From assembly GCF_004745635.1 (NCBI RefSeq), contig NZ_SRLB01000021.1:1-64000 (forward strand): 64,000 nt of DNA. The letters are read 5' to 3'. Every line of letters starts with the position of its first letter. The stretch's first letter is position 1. This DNA comes from Methylobacterium nonmethylotrophicum (GTDB taxonomy: Bacteria > Pseudomonadota > Alphaproteobacteria > Rhizobiales > Beijerinckiaceae). The notes beneath the pieces are model-generated. The model was given only the letters and a program-made list of their open reading frames with translations. It did not search any database and was not told the DNA's origin. Position numbers and translations under genes: made by a program. Shown here piece by piece: positions 11,305-23,433 of this stretch.

Positions 11305-13095
11305 ATGACCGAGCCCGCCGCGTCCGGTTCCTACAAGGAGGTCATCCTGTTCCTGGTCACGGCCGGGATCGTGGTGCCGCTGTTCCACCGCCTGCGCATC
11401 AGCCCGGTTCTCGGCTTCATCGGGGCCGGGGCCCTCCTCGGGCCGTCGGGCCTCGGGCGGCTCACCGACGTGGCGCCCTGGCTCGGCGCGATGACGATCT
11501 CGAACCGCACCGAGATCGCGCATCTCGCCGAGCTCGGCGTGGTCTTCCTGATGTTCATGATCGGGGTCGAGCTGTCCTGGGAGCGCCTGCGGGTGCTGCG
11601 CCGCCTCGTCTTCGGCCTCGGCTCGCTGCAGGTGGTGGTGTCGAGCCTCCTCGTCGGGGTGGTGCTGATGGCGCTCGAGGTGCCGCCCACCGCCGCGATC
11701 CTGGTCGGGCTGGCGCTGGCGCTCTCCTCCACCGCCATCGTGGTGCCGGTGCTGGCCGAGCAGAAGCGGCTCAACACGCCGGCCGGCCGGTCGAGCTTCG
11801 CGGTGCTGCTGTTCCAGGACCTCGCCGTGGCGCCGGTGCTGTTCGCCATCGCGGTCCTCGGCCGCAAGGACAGCGACGCGCTCTCCGGCCTCGCGGTGGC
11901 GCTCGGCCAGGCCGCGGTGGCGCTGGCGCTGCTCGTGGTCGCGGGGCGCCTGGGCCTGCGGCCGCTGTTCCAGCTCGTCGCCCGCACCCGCAGCCCCGAA
12001 CTGTTCATGGCCGCCTGCCTCCTGGTCATCGCGGCCACCGCCCTCGTGGCGGCGGGAAGCGGCCTGTCGATGACGCTCGGGGCGTTCGTCGCCGGCCTGC
12101 TCCTCGCCGAGACCGAGTACCGCCGGGCGATCGAGGCCACCATCGACCCGTTCAAGGGCCTGCTGCTGGGCGTGTTCTTCGTCTCGGTCGGCATGGGCAT
12201 CGACCCGGCGGTGCTGATGAAGACCCCGCTCACCATCCTGGGGCTCGCCCTCGGGCTGATCGTGATCAAGGGCGCGGTGATCCTGGGCGTCGGGACGGCC
12301 CTTCGTCTGCCCCGTGCGGTGGCGCTCGAGAGCGCCCTCTTGCTCGGGCCGGGGGGCGAGTTCGCCTTCGTGCTCGTCGGCAGCGCCATCGCGGCGGGGC
12401 TGGTGCCCGACGATCTCGGCCAGGCGGCGCTCGTCGTCACCACCGCCACGATGGTGATGATTCCCGGCCTCGCGGCGCTCGCCCGCCGGCTCGGCCGGCG
12501 GATCGACCGCACCGCCCTCGGCCGGGCCCGGGCCGAGCCGCCCCCGCCCGAGCGCCAGCCCGGCCGGGTGATCGTGGCGGGCTACGGCCGGGTCGGCCGG
12601 CTCGTCGCCGAGATGCTGGCGCGCCACAAGGTGCCCTACATCGCCCTCGACATGGACGCCGCCCGCGTCTCCGACCAGCGCCGCCTCGGCAACCCGGTCT
12701 ATTTCGGCGATTCGGCCAATCCCGAGCTCCTGCGCCGCTGCGGCATCGACACCGCCCGCGCCCTCGTGGTGACGCTCGACCAGCCCCGGGCCGTCGAGGC
12801 GGTGGTGGCCGCCGCCCGCGCCGAGCGGCCGGACCTGACCATCGTCGCCCGGGCGCGAGACGCCCGCCACGCCACCGCCCTCTACGAGATGGGCGTCGAC
12901 GACGCGGTGCCGGAGACGATCGAGGCCTCGCTCCAGCTCTCGGAGGCGGTGCTGGTCGATGTCGGGGTGCCGATGGGGCTGGTCATCGCCTCGATCCACG
13001 AGCGCCGCGACGAGTTCCGGGCGCTGCTGCGGCGCAAGGAGGCGGCCGAACCCCCGCCGTTCCAGGCCCGGCGCACCGTCGGCAAGGCCCCGTGA
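11305..13095 (+). CDS. CPA2-family K+/cation:H+ antiporter (KefB/YbaL-like), 596 aa
   Basis: The N-terminal 390 residues form about twelve hydrophobic helices of the Na+/H+ exchanger fold, including the LGLALALSSTAIVVPVL signature. They are followed by a TrkA-N (RCK) nucleotide-binding domain starting near residue 420 with the Rossmann motif VIVAGYGRVGR. Such proteins sit in the inner membrane and exchange potassium or sodium for protons, gated by nucleotide or glutathione ligands. The start is the ATG at 11305, matching the family N-terminus. The next gene begins seven bases after its stop, so the two are probably cotranscribed although functionally unrelated. Confidence 0.92.
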   Translation: MTEPAASGSYKEVILFLVTAGIVVPLFHRLRISPVLGFIGAGALLGPSGLGRLTDVAPWLGAMTISNRTEIAHLAELGVVFLMFMIGVELSWERLRVLRRLVFGLGSLQVVVSSLLVGVVLMALEVPPTAAILVGLALALSSTAIVVPVLAEQKRLNTPAGRSSFAVLLFQDLAVAPVLFAIAVLGRKDSDALSGLAVALGQAAVALALLVVAGRLGLRPLFQLVARTRSPELFMAACLLVIAATALVAAGSGLSMTLGAFVAGLLLAETEYRRAIEATIDPFKGLLLGVFFVSVGMGIDPAVLMKTPLTILGLALGLIVIKGAVILGVGTALRLPRAVALESALLLGPGGEFAFVLVGSAIAAGLVPDDLGQAALVVTTATMVMIPGLAALARRLGRRIDRTALGRARAEPPPPERQPGRVIVAGYGRVGRLVAEMLARHKVPYIALDMDAARVSDQRRLGNPVYFGDSANPELLRRCGIDTARALVVTLDQPRAVEAVVAAARAERPDLTIVARARDARHATALYEMGVDDAVPETIEASLQLSEAVLVDVGVPMGLVIASIHERRDEFRALLRRKEAAEPPPFQARRTVGKAP

Positions 13096-15193: not shown

Positions 15194-15597
15194 TCGCTGC
15201 GCTGAATCGCCTCCCACGAGGGCGGGACGAGGCCGGGAATGTCGGACACCCGACCTTCGACGCGGCGGCGATGCTCTTCGGCATCCGGGCACACGACCTC
15301 GACCTCGATCAGCCGCGCCGCGGAGCGGGCGGCCACGGCCCGCCATCCGTCGCGGCTGGCGGTGACCGGGTTGACGCAATCGGCCACGACGGTCCGCCCA
15401 TCGTCGAGGTTCGCCCCCGCGAGGTCCTGCGCCACCGCGTAGCCGGCTGCAGCCACGGCGCCCGCCGGCACGCCCGCATCCCGGATCGCCTGCTCGATGA
15501 TGTCTATTCGCAGGTAGGTCGCCGCGAGGGCGCGGGCGAGCGCGCGGGAGATGGTTGTCTTTCCGGTCCCGGGCAGGCCACCGAACACGATCAGCAT
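15085..15597 (-). CDS. P-loop AAA/zeta-like kinase, 170 aa
   Basis: The Walker A motif ([10 protein letters not shown]) is at the N-terminus, residues 6-15, as in small AAA_33 kinases of the APS-kinase/zeta-toxin-like group. A conserved Arg-Ile-Asp (YLRIDII) and a mid-protein DCVNP follow, then a Glu/Arg-rich lid ([10 protein letters not shown]). It probably phosphorylates a small molecule; the substrate is not known. It is convergent with and overlaps the small antitoxin-like ORF. A zeta-type toxin role is possible but no epsilon antitoxin is seen. Confidence 0.75.
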
Positions 15598-15799
15598 TGG
15601 CGCGGCCTCCCGGCGATCGCGACGGAGAAGGGCGGAGACGGCCGGCTCTTCGACCTCGCCATATCACGTCACCCGGCGTCAGACAGGCGGCCCGGCCGCC
15701 GGATCGTCGCGCCCGCCCGCGTCCACGCTGGACGAACGCCGCCGCAACCCCCACCTACGCCGCAGCACGGACACGGACAGCCTGCCCGGAGAGACATCC

Positions 15800-16363
15800 T
15801 TGGCCAACGACGACGCGGGGGGCGCCCCCCGCATGCATGCGACGACGATCCTGATGGTGCGCAAGGGCGGCCGGGTGGTGATCGGGGGCGACGGGCAGGT
15901 CAGCCTCGGCCAGACCATCGTCAAGGGCAATGCCCGCAAGGTCCGGCGCCTCGCCAAGGGGGCGGTGATCGGGGGCTTTGCCGGCGCCACCGCCGACGCC
16001 TTCACGCTGTTCGAGCGGCTGGAAGCCAAGCTCGAACAGTACCCGGGCCAGCTCACCCGGGCCTGCGTCGAGCTGACCAAGGACTGGCGCACCGACCGCT
16101 ACCTGCGCCGCCTCGAGGCGATGATGCTGGTGGCCGACAAGGACGTGAGCCTGCTCCTCTCCGGCGCCGGCGACGTGCTGGAGCCCGAGGGCGGCGTGAT
16201 GGCGATCGGCTCGGGCGGCAACTACGCGCTGGCCGCCGCCCGGGCGCTGGAGGAGCAGGACCTCGACGCCGAGGCGATCGTGCGCCGCGCCATGCGGATC
16301 GCCGCCGAGATCTGCGTCTACACCAACGCCAACCTGGTGATCGAGAGCCTGGACGCGGCTTGA
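15800..16363 (+). CDS. hslV: ATP-dependent protease subunit HslV (ClpQ)
   Basis: This is the peptidase of the HslVU (ClpYQ) protease, a dodecamer that degrades unfolded and regulatory proteins in the cytoplasm. The N-terminal nucleophile threonine is in the [12 protein letters not shown] segment; with the TTG start at 15800 it is residue 15 and would be exposed by removal of a short propeptide, as in other alphaproteobacteria. The Lys in GNARKVRRL and the GSGGNYA motif are conserved. An ATG at 15833 is an alternative start. It precedes hslU by 52 bases. Confidence 0.93.
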
Positions 16364-16415
16364 GCGCCCTCCCCGATCCCGTCCCCACGGCCCGAGACAT
16401 CCCCGCTAGCATCCC

Positions 16416-17729
<1,314 letters not shown>

Positions 17730-17832: not shown

Positions 17833-18894
17833 TCACCCCTCCCACACCTGCCCCGGCCGCAGCGCCAGGAACCGCTCCGCCGGCACCCCGGCCTCGCCGA
17901 GCGCCGTCCCCAACGCCTCGGCCGGCGCCTCCGCGCCCTCGTTGGTCAGCCGGAACGTGCCCCAGTGGTGGCCCAGCGCCTGCGCGGCCCCGACGTCGCG
18001 GAAGATCCGCACCGCCTCCTCCGGGTTGACGTGCTGGGCCTGCATGAACCATCGCGGCTCGTAGGCGCCGATCGGCAGGGTGGCGAGGCGGGGCCCGCCG
18101 AAGCGCTCCCGCACCGCCCGGAAGATCGCCCCGTCGCCGTAGCCGGTATCGCCGACGTGATAGAGCACGCCCGCGGGCGTGGTGAGCACGAAGGCGCACC
18201 ACAGGGCCATGCGCCTGTCGTTCACGCCGCGGGCCGACCAGTGATAGGCCGGCACCAGGTGCACGGTGATCTCAGCCCCGAGATCGACCGACCCGCCCCA
18301 GTCCCGGGTCTCGACCGGGATCGTGGCATCGTAGCTGCGCAGGATCGCGTCGTTGCCGAGCGGCGCCACGAAGGTCGGCGCGTGCTCGGCCCAGAGCCGG
18401 GCCAGGATCGGCCCGTCGAGATGGTCGTAGTGGTTGTGGGTGACGAGCACCGCATCGATCGGCGGCAGGGCCGCGAAGGCGATCCCCGGCGGGTTGGCGC
18501 GCTTCGGGCCGGCGAAGCCCACCGGGCTCGCGCGCTTGGCGTAGACCGGGTCGATCAGGATGTTGCGGCCCGCGACCTGGATCAGCAGGCTGGCATGCCC
18601 GATATGGACGACGCGCAGACCCTCGACCCGCTCGGGCGGCGTGTCCTGCGGAAACGGGCTCGGGACCCGGGCCGGCCAGGCCTCGCGGCCGCCAGCGAGC
18701 TGCCAGCGCGCCAGCTCGGCCACGTCCTTGTCCTGCGGCTGGCCCGGCGAGAAGAACCGCACGCCGTCGAAATGGTCGCTGACCGGGCCCTGGTAGTAGG
18801 GGTTGCGGCTGCGCCGGTGGGCGGCGTAGCCGACGCCGCCCAGCGTCATCACGGTGACGGCGCTGGCGAGCTTGAGGAAGCCACGGTTCTTCAT
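17833..18894 (-). CDS. MBL-fold metallo-hydrolase (RomA/NAPE-PLD-like), 353 aa
   Basis: A metallo-beta-lactamase-fold hydrolase of the UlaG/RomA/NAPE-PLD-like group. The metal-binding motif is THNHYDHLD, preceded by GHASLLIQ and ILIDPVY; later ligands are the Asp in HVGDTGYGD and the His in LGHHWGTF. An N-terminal hydrophobic stretch (about residues 7-24) suggests a membrane anchor or uncleaved signal. The ATG at 18894 is chosen because the protein before it is not family-like. The substrate is unknown; relatives hydrolyse phosphodiesters such as N-acyl phosphatidylethanolamine. It is convergent with hslU. Confidence 0.88.
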   Translation of the reverse strand: MKNRGFLKLASAVTVMTLGGVGYAAHRRSRNPYYQGPVSDHFDGVRFFSPGQPQDKDVAELARWQLAGGREAWPARVPSPFPQDTPPERVEGLRVVHIGHASLLIQVAGRNILIDPVYAKRASPVGFAGPKRANPPGIAFAALPPIDAVLVTHNHYDHLDGPILARLWAEHAPTFVAPLGNDAILRSYDATIPVETRDWGGSVDLGAEITVHLVPAYHWSARGVNDRRMALWCAFVLTTPAGVLYHVGDTGYGDGAIFRAVRERFGGPRLATLPIGAYEPRWFMQAQHVNPEEAVRIFRDVGAAQALGHHWGTFRLTNEGAEAPAEALGTALGEAGVPAERFLALRPGQVWEG

Positions 18895-18968
18895 GCACCC
18901 GGAGATGACCGGCCGAAGGCCGAGGTCAAGGTGCGTCTCCGCGGACCCTTCGCCGCGCCCGGACCGCA

Positions 18969-18996
18969 TTGCACAACGCCGCCGGATCCTTACATT
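18969..18996 (+). promoter_or_regulatory. Possible promoter upstream of the 23-aa ORF
   Basis: TTGCAC (18969-18974) and TACATT (18991-18996) are separated by 16 bases and lie about 20 bases before the extended Shine-Dalgarno sequence. The matches to sigma70 consensus are moderate. Confidence 0.3.
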
Positions 18997-19017
18997 CATC
19001 CCATCGGCAACAACAGG

Positions 19018-19032
19018 AAGGAGGTGATCCAG
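19018..19032 (+). promoter_or_regulatory. Exceptionally long Shine-Dalgarno sequence
   Basis: Fifteen consecutive bases, AAGGAGGTGATCCAG, are the exact complement of the 3' end of bacterial 16S rRNA as generally conserved (CTGGATCACCTCCTT). The last base is the first G of a GTG codon. Typical ribosome sites match 4-7 bases. The spacing is very short if GTG is the start, so this could also be a ribosome-trapping or regulatory element. Confidence 0.6.
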
Positions 19033-19103
19033 TGTCTCATTGTCATCAGCCGCGGTCGTCTGCGCGCCGGACCTGGATCGTCGCCTCCGGCTTTACGGCC
19101 TGA
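19032..19103 (+). CDS. Putative 23-aa leader peptide or small protein
   Basis: A GTG codon directly abuts a 15-base perfect anti-16S complement. The reading frame encodes 23 residues: a His/Cys-rich start (SHCHQP), an Arg/Ser middle and a hydrophobic end (TWIVASGFTA), then TGA. I do not recognise a function. A downstream hairpin at 19173-19204 makes a leader-peptide/attenuation arrangement conceivable. The nearest downstream gene starts 630 bases later, which argues for a stand-alone small gene instead. Confidence 0.45.
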   Translation: MSHCHQPRSSARRTWIVASGFTA

Positions 19104-19172
19104 GCGCACGACGAACGATCCGGGATCGGTGACGATCCTGACGGAAGTCTGTCGGACCGCGGTTCGGCAATG

Positions 19173-19204
19173 GAAGGGCTGCCCCGGCGACGGGGCGGCC
19201 CTTC
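19173..19204 (+). terminator. Strong hairpin after the 23-aa ORF
   Basis: Thirteen-base arms (GAAGGGCTGCCCC and GGGGCGGCCCTTC) pair with a single U-G wobble around a 6-base loop. Only a weak T-containing tail follows, so termination may need Rho or may be an attenuator. Confidence 0.4.
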
Positions 19205-20103: not shown

Positions 20104-23100
20104 ATGCGCAAGCTCCTGGTGACCGTGTTGATTCTGCTGTGCGCCGCCGCGGAGGTCCGCGCGGCCGAGCGGCCGCTCTGGCTGCGCGAGCCGGCCCTGT
20201 CGCCGGACGGGACCCGCCTCGCCTTCCGGTACCGCGGCCGGATCTGGACCGTGCCGGCGGCGGGCGGCGAGGCCCGGCCGCTGACCGCTCCGGGGGCCCA
20301 CGCCGAGACGCCGCTCTGGTCGCCCGACGGGACGAGCCTCGCCTTCGCGTCCGACCGCTCCGGCGCCCTCAACCTGTACAGCGCGCCCGCCGAGGGCGGC
20401 GAGGCCCGGCGCCTGACCTGGTACTCCCTCGACGAGCGGCCGATGAGCATCACGCCGGACGGGCGGGCGGTGCTGTTCGCCTCGCGGCGGCTCGGCGACG
20501 CGACCCGCACCTTCGCGCCGCCCGGCCGCGCCGAGCCGGCCTCCCAGGTCTGGGCCGTGCCGCTCTCCGGCGGGCGCGAGACCCTGGTGCTCCCGAACGC
20601 CGCGATGGAGGCGCGCTGGGACCCGGAGGGGCGGCGCCTCCTCTATACCAGCCCCAACGTCGAGCAGCGCTTCCGCCAGCACCAGGTCTCCCGCGCCGTG
20701 CGGCAGGTCTGGCTCTACGACGCCGCGACGGGGCGCCACGAGCGCCTGACCGACGGCATCCGCGAGAGCCGCGGCGCGGTCTGGCTGCCCGGCGGCGAGA
20801 TCGCGTACCTGAGCGAGGCCTCGGGCTCGCTCAACGTCTGGCGGCTCTCCCTCACGGACCGCGTGCCGCGCCAGGTCACGCGCTTTCCCGACGGCCCGGT
20901 GCGCTTCCTGTCGGCCTCCCGCGACGGCGACCTCGCCTTCGCCCGCGACGGGCAGATCTCCCGCCTGCTGCGCGGCGCCGAGGCGCCCGAGCCGGTGCCG
21001 GTCACGGTCGCGGACGTGACCTTCGCCGACGAGGTCCCGGCCCGCACCTCGGATTTCTCCGACCTCGCGGTCTCGCCGACCGGCCAGGAGGTCGCCCTGG
21101 TGGCGCAGGGCGAGATCTACGTCGCGTCGCGGGACGGCAAGTCGGTGAAACGGGTCACCCGCACCGCGGGCGAGGAGCGCAACCCCGCCTTCTCGCCGGA
21201 CGGCCGCCGCCTCGCCTACGCGGCCGAGCGCGACGGGCGCTGGGGCCTCTACGAGGCGGCGCCGGGGCAAGGGGACGAGCGCGGCTTCGCGCAGGCGACC
21301 CGCCTCGTCGAGCGGGCGCTGCCGACGCCGCCCGGCGACGCCTTCCTGCCGACCTGGTCGCCGGACGGGCGCCGCCTCGCCTACATCCACGATCGCGGCG
21401 CGGTCCACGTCCTCGACCCGGCGAGCGGCGCCGACCGGGAGGTGGTGCCGCCGGGCCTGTTCTATCCGTACCACGACGGGTCGTGGTGGCTGTCCTGGTC
21501 GCCGGACGGGCGCTGGCTGGCGCTGCCGGTCCAGATCGACCGCGGCTTCGTCCACAACGTCGCGGTGGTGCCGGCCGACGGCTCGCGGCCGCCCCGGCGG
21601 GTGGCGCCGGCGGGCGAGGGCCAGAGCGCGGCGCAGTGGAGCCCGGATGGCGGGATGCTGCTGTGGCGCAGCGAGCCGGAGGACCTGCACTCCGCCTCCG
21701 GCGCCACCGAGCGGGCCGACATCGACGCGGTCTTCGCCTCGCGCCGGGCCCGGGACGCCTACGAGGCCCGCCTGCGCGCGCCCGTCGAGCCCGAGCCGCC
21801 CCGGCCCGCCGCGCCGGCGAGGAGCGCCGAACCCGGCATGGCGGCGGAGCCGGGCGCGGTGGCCGAGCCCAGGCTCGCGCCGGAGCGGGAGGCGCCCCGC
21901 CCGGCCCCCGCGCCGCAGCCTTTCGACCCGGACGGGCTCGAGGACCGGCAGCACCGGCTCTCCGAGGGGCATGTCGACGTGGTCCATGCCAGCCTGTTGC
22001 GCGACGGGGTGAGCCTGCTCACCGTCGAGCGCAGCGAGCGGCCGAAGGGCGAGGGCTTCGCCCTCACCGGCACGATCCGCGACCTGCGCCAGGGCACGCG
22101 CCGCACGGTCTTCTCCGACCTGCCCTACCGGCGCTTCAGCCCGGTGCGCCTGAGCGGCGACCACCGCGTCCTGACCTTCCTGACCGGGAACGGCTTCACC
22201 GAGGTCGATCTCGCCCGGGGGGCCCCGCGCCACGTCCGGGTCGAGGCGGAGGCCGGCCACGACCCGGCCGCGCGCCTCGCGGCGGGCTTCGACCAGTTCT
22301 GGCGCCTGACGCGGGCCAAGTTCCTCGATCCGGGCCTGCACGGGGTCGACTGGGACGCGGTGCGGGCCCGCTACGCCCGCTTCCTGCCGGCGCTGGCGGA
22401 TGCCCGCGACCTCGCCGAGCTCCTGTCCGAGATGGCGGGCGAGCTCGACGCCTCGCATACCGGCGCCGGCCTCAGCCCCGGCGTGCCGCCGGGCGAGGAG
22501 ACCGCGTCGCTCGGCCTCTACTACGACGAGACCTTCTCGGGACCGGGCATGCGCGTCGCCGCGATCCTGCCCGCCGGCCCGTTCGATGCCGGCGACACGC
22601 GGCTCTCCCCCGGCGACGTGATCACGGCGGTCGACGGCGAGGCCGTGCCGGAGGCGGGCGGCATCCGGCGGCTCTTGCGCGGCGCGCGGGACCGGCGGGT
22701 CGAGATCGCCTTTCGCAAGCCCGACGGGACGGAGCTGCGCGAGCGCCGGGTGCCGGTGGGCCTCGAGCGCGAGCGCGACCTCGCCTTCGAGCGCTGGCGG
22801 CGGGTGCGCCGGGACGCAGTGGCGGCCCGCTCGTGCGGCCGCCTCGGCTACGTCCACGTCCGTGCGATGGACGCCGCCTCCTACCGCCGGACCTTCGCGG
22901 AGGTGTTCGGGCGGTTCGGCCAGGCCGAGGGGCTGGTGGTCGACGTGCGCTTCAATGGCGGCGGCAACCTGCACAACCAGCTCATCACCCTGCTCTCCGG
23001 CCGCCCCTACCTGACCTACGCGCCCCGCTCCGGCCCGGTCCAGAGCGATCCGCGCGACCGCTGGAGCCGCCCCTCCGTGGTGCTGATGAACGGGGCGAGC

Positions 23101-23433
23101 TACTCCGACGCCTCGATCTTCCCGCAGGGCTACCACGACCTCGGCATCGGCCCCCTGGTCGGCGAGCCGGTGGCCGGTACCGGCACCTTCACCTGGTGGG
23201 CGCCCTCGATGATCGTGCCGCGCCTCACCTACGGCCTGCCGCAGATCGCCCTCCACCGCGCCGACGGCACCCGGCTCGAGAACACCGACGTGCTGCCCGA
23301 CCTCGCCGTCCCGCCCGACCCCGCCGCCTGGGCGGAGGGCCGCGACCCGCAGCTCGCCGCGGCGGTGGACCGCCTGCTCGGAGACCCGGGCGGCGCCTGC
23401 CGGCCGGCGAGCGCGGCGGCGGTGCCGCGGTAG
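20104..23433 (+). CDS. Tricorn-protease-like S41 peptidase, exported, 1109 aa
   Basis: A large serine peptidase of family S41 with Tricorn architecture. A signal peptide (about residues 1-21) points to the periplasm. The N-terminal half is two beta-propellers of PD40/WD40-like repeats, visible as recurring SPDG motifs (LSPDGTRLAF, WSPDGTSLAF, FSPDGRRLAY, WSPDGRRLAY, WSPDGRWLAL). A Pro/Ala/Glu-rich linker near 560-610 follows, then a helical C1-like region, a PDZ domain (AAILPAGPFDAGDTRLSPGDVI) and the protease core with RFNGGGN and the SYSDASIFP motif; Ser at about 1001 is the probable nucleophile. Tricorn trims peptides to small products; this homologue may do so in the envelope. Confidence 0.9.
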   Translation: MRKLLVTVLILLCAAAEVRAAERPLWLREPALSPDGTRLAFRYRGRIWTVPAAGGEARPLTAPGAHAETPLWSPDGTSLAFASDRSGALNLYSAPAEGGEARRLTWYSLDERPMSITPDGRAVLFASRRLGDATRTFAPPGRAEPASQVWAVPLSGGRETLVLPNAAMEARWDPEGRRLLYTSPNVEQRFRQHQVSRAVRQVWLYDAATGRHERLTDGIRESRGAVWLPGGEIAYLSEASGSLNVWRLSLTDRVPRQVTRFPDGPVRFLSASRDGDLAFARDGQISRLLRGAEAPEPVPVTVADVTFADEVPARTSDFSDLAVSPTGQEVALVAQGEIYVASRDGKSVKRVTRTAGEERNPAFSPDGRRLAYAAERDGRWGLYEAAPGQGDERGFAQATRLVERALPTPPGDAFLPTWSPDGRRLAYIHDRGAVHVLDPASGADREVVPPGLFYPYHDGSWWLSWSPDGRWLALPVQIDRGFVHNVAVVPADGSRPPRRVAPAGEGQSAAQWSPDGGMLLWRSEPEDLHSASGATERADIDAVFASRRARDAYEARLRAPVEPEPPRPAAPARSAEPGMAAEPGAVAEPRLAPEREAPRPAPAPQPFDPDGLEDRQHRLSEGHVDVVHASLLRDGVSLLTVERSERPKGEGFALTGTIRDLRQGTRRTVFSDLPYRRFSPVRLSGDHRVLTFLTGNGFTEVDLARGAPRHVRVEAEAGHDPAARLAAGFDQFWRLTRAKFLDPGLHGVDWDAVRARYARFLPALADARDLAELLSEMAGELDASHTGAGLSPGVPPGEETASLGLYYDETFSGPGMRVAAILPAGPFDAGDTRLSPGDVITAVDGEAVPEAGGIRRLLRGARDRRVEIAFRKPDGTELRERRVPVGLERERDLAFERWRRVRRDAVAARSCGRLGYVHVRAMDAASYRRTFAEVFGRFGQAEGLVVDVRFNGGGNLHNQLITLLSGRPYLTYAPRSGPVQSDPRDRWSRPSVVLMNGASYSDASIFPQGYHDLGIGPLVGEPVAGTGTFTWWAPSMIVPRLTYGLPQIALHRADGTRLENTDVLPDLAVPPDPAAWAEGRDPQLAAAVDRLLGDPGGACRPASAAAVPR

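Follow-up and report, generated by a model that had tools for sequence, protein, structure and literature searches.

What is the exact complement of the 3' end of 16S rRNA doing directly in front of a reading frame of 23 codons? The sequence in question, AAGGAGGTGATCCAG, occupies exactly positions 19018–19032 of the window analyzed here (the first 64,000 nucleotides of contig NZ_SRLB01000021.1 of Methylobacterium nonmethylotrophicum), and its last base opens a GTG codon at 19032–19034. A sequence-only reading of the window had pointed out this Shine-Dalgarno (SD) block, the frame that it leads into and a hairpin further on, proposing a ribosome-holding element, a highly translated tiny protein, or a leader peptide. 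On re-reading the sequence, we found the positions of all three elements to be correct.

To place the locus, we used an Rfam scan of the whole window, which gave a single match at curated thresholds, RF01867 "CC2171" (19008–19202, plus strand), a small RNA of Caulobacter. The window copy matches over the full length of the model (positions 1–159 of 159 aligned), scoring 102.5 bits against a curated cut-off of 75 (E = 2.7e-20). Since this one match spans them, the SD block, the frame and the hairpin are the 5' end, body and 3' end of one RNA gene, a CC2171 small RNA that the source genome has in one copy. The hairpin is real, with a 14-bp stem in the predicted fold, but it forms the 3' terminus of this RNA and is not, as had been supposed, a separate element following the frame. 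Beyond what the earlier reading contained, the locus belongs to a known Rfam family and has a helix joining its 5' and 3' parts and an internal anti-SD. The features are collected in the table.

Table. Features of the CC2171 locus in the window, with the evidence for each
Feature	Position	Strand	Basis
CC2171-family RNA (RF01867)	19008..19203	+	Rfam match to 19202; exact 5' and 3' ends inferred
Extended SD block, 17 nt against the 16S 3' tail, one G·U (19017)	19016..19032	+	Sequence, 16S end of an order relative, 97 loci
Small frame, GTG start, 23 codons + TGA	19032..19103	+	Sequence; length kept in relatives
Helix P1, 5' strand UCAUUGUC, codons 2–5	19037..19044	+	Fold; covariation in divergent copies
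Helix P1, 3' strand GGCAAUGG, adjoins terminal hairpin	19166..19173	+	Fold; covariation in divergent copies
Internal anti-SD CUGGAUC-GUC-GCCUCC; may pair with the SD block (P0)	19073..19088	+	Duplex energy against shuffles
Terminal hairpin, probable intrinsic terminator, few T behind	19173..19204	+	14-bp stem in predicted fold

We compared the block with the 16S 3' end of a relative from the same order (G361, L275), which reads CTGGATCACCTCCTTTCT. The complementarity of 15 bases noted earlier is real and in fact slightly longer, extending to a 17-nt pairing with one G·U. The 16S tail of the source genome was not among that genome's matches to the 12-mer core of the block, and a 16S end was found in one of ten other genomes asked; rRNA is perhaps missing or masked in these genomes. 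The predicted duplex with the 16S tail reaches -27.3 kcal/mol for the block, versus -8.7 kcal/mol for a plain GGAGG. Spacing to the start codon had been described as almost nil, which is misleading: the core GGAGG (19020–19024) lies 7 nt ahead of the GTG, a normal distance, and it is the extra complementarity that occupies the spacer.

Within the window, the 15-mer occurs twice at up to two mismatches, against 0.08 occurrences expected. The 12-mer AAGGAGGTGATC has six occurrences in the 7.83-Mb genome, and only at CC2171 is it followed by a start codon at the position fixed in the family; over start offsets of 13–25, a later start (at 18, 21 or 24) follows three of the other five sites, whereas the remaining two lack one. 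On inspection by eye, these sites look like Lys-Glu-Val-Ile codons within genes. Together with the class-wide pattern counts given below, these window and genome counts rule out a chance origin of the block. We also rejected a 16S rRNA fragment on the other strand, as the window reads TGTCTC past CAG where the 16S complement would read CCGCAGG, and rRNA was absent from the Rfam scan of the window. The other of the two window sites, which differs from the 15-mer at two bases, is at 11335–11349 on the plus strand.

Across relatives, AAGGAGGTG was identical in all 97 loci scored, a conservation that is not fully independent because the loci were chosen by the Rfam model (not by the SD pattern) and the model itself includes the SD block. 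These are 97 of 99 Rfam-model loci, not dereplicated and in many cases from one genus; the two unscored loci, L002 and L004, also carry the exact block. The three bases 3' of AAGGAGGTG (ATC) match in 85, 95 and 97 of the 97 loci and the two bases 5' of it in 92 and 90, whereas outside the block the match drops to 88, 69 and 61, so that the invariant part is close to the complement of the free, single-stranded 16S tail; helix 45 of 16S, we assume, starts just behind the stretch of tail to which the block is complementary. At the two A positions that vary, 18 changes preserve a G·U pair with 16S and one does not, although transition bias may account for part of this. The start codon sits at one fixed distance from the block in 96 of the 97 loci (GTG in 61, ATG in 32 and TTG in 3), the exception being L216, where it is one base closer.

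The GTG frame of the window encodes VSHCHQPRSSARRTWIVASGFTA (23 aa) and ends in TGA at 19101–19103. Among 154 copies picked by an exact 5'-block pattern, in which invariance of the SD is given by construction, the stop falls at 20–28 codons in 152, and stops in the two other frames scatter. Dereplication reduced 235 distinct stretches to 156 by removing near-copies, stretches shorter than 240 nt and the loci L183, L225 and L274. In this set, 154 of 156 frames stop at 17–36 codons, versus about 45 in shuffles. The same holds for each part of the set, with 93 of 94 copies in one and 61 of 62 in the other, divergent one (shuffles averaged 24.2 and 20.4 such copies and never exceeded 34 and 29); restoring L183, L225 and L274, whose frames have 55–56 codons, changes the divergent count to 61 of 65. 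The stop is not merely carried along by the structure, since its distance to a 3' anchor (found in 117 of the 154 copies) takes all values modulo three. The reading frame is thus selected for length, and the RNA has the selected frame (154/156) expected of a dual-function sRNA or small mRNA.

By contrast with the frame, the peptide is mostly unconserved and near-neutral. Substitutions after codon 6 in 44 independent pairs comprised 49 synonymous and 101 non-synonymous changes, an omega of about 0.86 that is no different from the values of shifted frames used as a control (1.01 and 0.78), and 12 divergent pairs gave 1.1 overall. Divided by segment (46 pairs), omega was 1.12 for codons 7–13, 0.48 for codons 14–19 (p = 0.019, uncorrected) and 0.94 from codon 20 to the end, so that the synonymous excess at codons 14–19 leaves room for some peptide selection there. 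Peptides are unlike one another across lineages (VSHC...TW, MSHGSAGRSV..., MSSE...EQPS), with the VSHC N-terminus common to many copies. VSHCHQPRSSARRTWIVASGFTA had no match in Pfam and, by eye, contains no membrane helix.

The letters that are conserved inside the frame look RNA-like. An in-frame TGG is present in 82 of the 94 copies, and the codon before it ends in C in all but one of these (81) while its first two bases vary, compared with a third-position C frequency of 26% in codons 7–13; the GRRCARCC motif of other lineages occurs in all three frames (13/5/1 among 19 carriers of 62). For the highly translated tiny protein proposed earlier, the outcome is divided: selection on the frame is borne out, and selection on the amino acids after codon 6 is not clearly so. 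In L183, L225 and L274, the same 5' block stands ahead of the 55–56-codon frame, which by eye has a signal-peptide-like start.

We found that codons 2–6 pair with the segment immediately 5' of the terminal hairpin, forming a helix (P1) between UCAUUGUC and GGCAAUGG in the window. The two strands co-vary, with AUGAGAUU facing AAUCUCAU in L030 and CAUGGUUCAGC facing GCUGACCAUG in L185. Across 61 divergent copies, strands paired with their own partners averaged -8.24 kcal/mol versus -5.63 kcal/mol with swapped partners, the best of 200 swaps reaching -6.65 kcal/mol; in 92 VSHC copies swapping had no effect because the partners are nearly alike. This comparison covered 153 of the 156 copies, the remaining three having no clear terminator, and the helix is not clear in some divergent copies (-1.6 kcal/mol in L199 and -3.9 kcal/mol in L221). 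P1 is strongly supported and is the best supported structural element of the RNA.

A further, moderately supported pairing (P0) would join the SD block to the internal anti-SD, a segment that resembles the 16S tail and that many copies contain late in the frame. Its predicted duplex reaches -20.9 kcal/mol in the window versus -13.5 kcal/mol in shuffles, and mean energies are -16.3 versus -12.6 kcal/mol in the 94 copies and -14.6 versus -12.1 kcal/mol in the 62, although, taken singly, no more than 50 of the 94 and 21 of the 62 copies pass the 5% level set by their shuffles. Covariation between the SD extension and the frame was seen as strict pairs in 7 of 59 cases, where 300 permutations averaged 1.8 and reached 6 at most, two of these seven sites being early in the frame; with G·U allowed, the count of 17 did not exceed the permuted maximum of 18. 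The stop lies 10–25 nt past the internal anti-SD in 78 of 94 copies but in only 32 of 62. P0 and P1 cross, so they would be alternatives or form a pseudoknot, and in the window, folding with P0 costs 5.6 kcal/mol relative to the optimal structure, in which P1 is present. Scans of the locus for intrinsic terminators and sigma-70 promoters returned none.

To determine how widely the RNA occurs, we searched genome samples of increasing breadth. All 37 sampled Methylobacterium genomes, including that of the window, have a CC2171 match, as do 11 of the 24 other genomes of the order. In a sample of the class, the Rfam model at E ≤ 0.001 matched 85 of 385 genomes, 14 of them above the cut-off, and the strict pattern AAGGAGGTGATC-NN-DTG-TC occurred in 80 of 385 Alphaproteobacteria genomes (about a fifth), with no occurrence of the reversed control. 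A G·U-tolerant pattern that demanded one more upstream base was found in 84 of 372 genomes (reversed control, 2). The refuting outcome that the sequence-only reading had named, a lack of conservation of peptide or element in relatives, thus did not occur, as the element is class-wide and the frame length is kept. Among genomes with named sources, the 25-mer AAGGAGGTGATCCAGTGTCTCATTG was recovered from at least 120 stretches; sources among the matches listed include Methylobacterium, Microvirga, Bosea, Brevundimonas, Acetobacteraceae and others, and one listed record is titled Ramlibacter, perhaps a misbinned metagenome-assembled genome. When 20 divergent loci were compared with other Rfam families at E up to 0.1, only CC2171 and a weak match to BcKCsr2 (in L215) appeared. 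Most genomes have one copy.

In a sample of the phylum, the strict pattern occurred in 45 of 86 genomes within the class and in 6 of 213 outside it. Four of the six matches outside the class (L292–L295) are, we presume, 2-oxoacid:ferredoxin oxidoreductase subunit genes. The other two, L290 and L291, have the CC2171 layout, with 18-codon frames and a terminal hairpin, and the order to which they belong has the strict pattern in 2 of 197 genomes. DNA similarity searches of family f208 at E up to 0.1 matched 30 of 59 genomes, mostly through short, chance-like pieces; of the matches inspected (L302, L306, L308 and L315), only L302 is copy-like, making it a third such locus outside the class besides L290 and L291, with a longer spacer. 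In L292–L295, the oxidoreductase-like gene starts within a AAGGAGGTGATCTGATG overlap with an upstream frame whose apparent end is Lys-Glu-Val-Ile-stop.

The surroundings of the RNA point to a free-standing gene. Upstream lies a beta-lactamase-fold protein (17833–18999, minus strand), and two adjacent frames at 15551–17729 look like hslV and hslU; downstream come a frame without assignment and then, from 20104, a tricorn-like protease. Among 158 loci, the largest neighbor family (counting frames of 90 aa or longer, up to about 3.5 kb away where the sequence reached that far) is common to 42 with antisense frames counted, and this lack of a widely common neighbor speaks for an RNA that stands alone. 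The tricorn-like protease is a frame of 1109 aa (20104–23433) with PD40 repeats and Tricorn_C1 and Peptidase_S41 domains.

The combination of a ribosome-binding site for the whole 16S tail with a tiny conserved frame suggests that CC2171 RNA is probably translated rather than "non-coding". The explanation that we prefer, while judging the case for it to be about evenly balanced, is a small mRNA/sRNA that folds under the control of the ribosomes it binds and in which the act of translation, more than the peptide, seems to be conserved. The SD block would recruit 30S subunits to the start codon 7 nt past GGAGG, in a region otherwise shut by the RNA itself, with P1 closing codons 2–6 and the late internal anti-SD sequestering the block through P0. 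Such a strong SD could allow the ribosome to outcompete both folds, and the internal anti-SD would be melted or covered by a ribosome elongating to the stop, which often lies 10–25 nt further on. The RNA would thus stay open through repeated rounds of translation, each ribosome passage resetting the fold, so the conserved product would probably be the ribosome-remodelled RNA and not the peptide. The benefit might be stability or the exposure of single-stranded segments. Family membership, the conserved SD and start, the selected frame length, the covariation of P1 and the near-neutral peptide are shown by computation; from there on we infer the translation, the P0/P1 switch and the physiological role. 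The earlier idea of a possible ribosome-holding element is close to this mechanism.

Other explanations account for parts of the same evidence. If CC2171 were a conventional microprotein gene, with a peptide of 20–30 residues as its product and RNA structure tuning output, then the selected frame length, the widespread VSHC N-terminus, the omega of 0.48 at codons 14–19 and the 55–56-codon frame behind the same 5' block in three lineages would all be in keeping; we consider it possible but unlikely, given that omega is near 1 in the rest of the frame, that peptides are dissimilar between lineages, and that the conserved N-terminal codons double as P1 while the TGG segment is conserved at the third position. 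The near-neutral peptide, the RNA-like character of several conserved segments and the classification of CC2171 as an sRNA in Rfam would suit a purely non-coding, trans-acting sRNA, whose SD-like block and anti-SD pair with other RNAs and whose frame is incidental. That 154 of 156 frames should stop at 17–36 codons, behind a perfect SD whose spacing to the start does not vary, would be unexpected of such an RNA, making it distinctly unlikely.

A ribosome decoy or sensor that used the full 16S complement to bind free 30S subunits, much as 6S RNA binds RNA polymerase, would explain why the complement of the entire free 16S tail is near-invariant, why the predicted duplex is so much stronger than that of GGAGG (-27.3 versus -8.7 kcal/mol) and why the codons directly after the start are closed by P1. 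However, the RNA is mostly present as one copy per genome and the kept frame suggests productive translation, and we regard a decoy as quite improbable. That the frame serves as a leader peptide, as the sequence-only reading had also proposed, or as an attenuator for a gene downstream is scarcely credible, even though a short frame with a terminator-like hairpin behind it has the right appearance: an attenuator would accompany a conserved downstream gene, but no neighbor family is present in more than 42 of 158 loci, and in the window a wide gap lies behind the RNA, the next sizeable gene-like frame being some 400–900 nt past the hairpin.

Among known systems, hok-type toxin mRNAs pair their start region with their distant 3' end, which may hold translation back. 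CC2171 is similar in that its start region pairs with its 3' end, and differs in that its peptide is unconserved and lacks an obvious membrane helix. 6S RNA binds RNA polymerase by imitating the ideal target of a core machine. The comparison concerns the way of working only, not sequence or structure, and the target of CC2171 would be the 30S subunit. Tentatively, and with the expectation that it will more probably fail than hold, we suggest that CC2171 could be a 6S-like, ribosome-facing RNA: class-wide and mostly single-copy, with a complement of the whole 16S tail and its own copy of that tail within a short frame, it might be opened and closed by 30S subunits and so sense or buffer free ribosomes through idle translation, the peptide being irrelevant.

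In Staphylococcus aureus, two further base pairs are reported for the extended SD of one mRNA, and extension is predicted at about 30% of sites (PMC13009471). As described there, pairing continues past the canonical SD towards the start codon, a GUG start included, as in CC2171; unlike the S. aureus case, CC2171 has 14–17 nt in one conserved RNA gene. The rnTrpL/peTrpL RNA of Sinorhizobium meliloti, in the portions available of PMC7298713 and PMC10117765, is likewise a small alphaproteobacterial RNA with a short frame, translated in rnTrpL, but it is leaderless and derives from the trp attenuator, whereas CC2171 has an extreme SD and no common downstream gene. Ribo-seq of S. meliloti placed 33% of 54 new translated small frames on annotated sRNAs, as given in the accessible text of PMC10117765.

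CC2171 itself is named among families with improved structures in what is available of the Rfam 15 paper (PMC11701678), and a Mesorhizobium huakuii relative is given with sequencing coordinates in the available part of PMC5596092. To Rfam's CC2171 sRNA entry, our analysis adds a reading frame, complementarity to 16S and an occurrence that extends below the cut-off. A literature search, mostly of titles and abstracts, found no description of these three features, although earlier notice in the founding Caulobacter paper or in the S. meliloti Ribo-seq tables is possible; the accessible portions of PMC5082802, PMC7685610, PMC2873474 and PMC8959179 contain no description of the frame or the 16S complementarity. 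What appears to be newly described is a near-invariant 16S-tail block with a fixed start, a near-neutral frame kept in length, and the pairing of P1 together with a putative internal anti-SD.

An RNA filed as non-coding therefore seems to be translated through much of a bacterial class, coupling a near-invariant SD of 14–17 nt with a length-conserved frame whose peptide is mostly unconserved. If this is true, CC2171 would provide a natural case in which the act of translation is itself selected, a naturally extreme SD with which to test the effect of long SD pairing on initiation, and a free-standing candidate sensor of free 30S subunits.

Multiple matches per genome were seen in G400 and G012 (two each) and in G398 (three, one of them weak), and in Methylobacterium tarhaniae the 25-mer lies on two contigs (L069 and L117). 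A plasmid search returned four records, two from Methylobacterium and two from Skermanella. The Skermanella plasmids, NZ_CP086109.1 and NZ_CP086114.1, each have two places that resemble the 5' part of the RNA, the best match falling where no feature is annotated.
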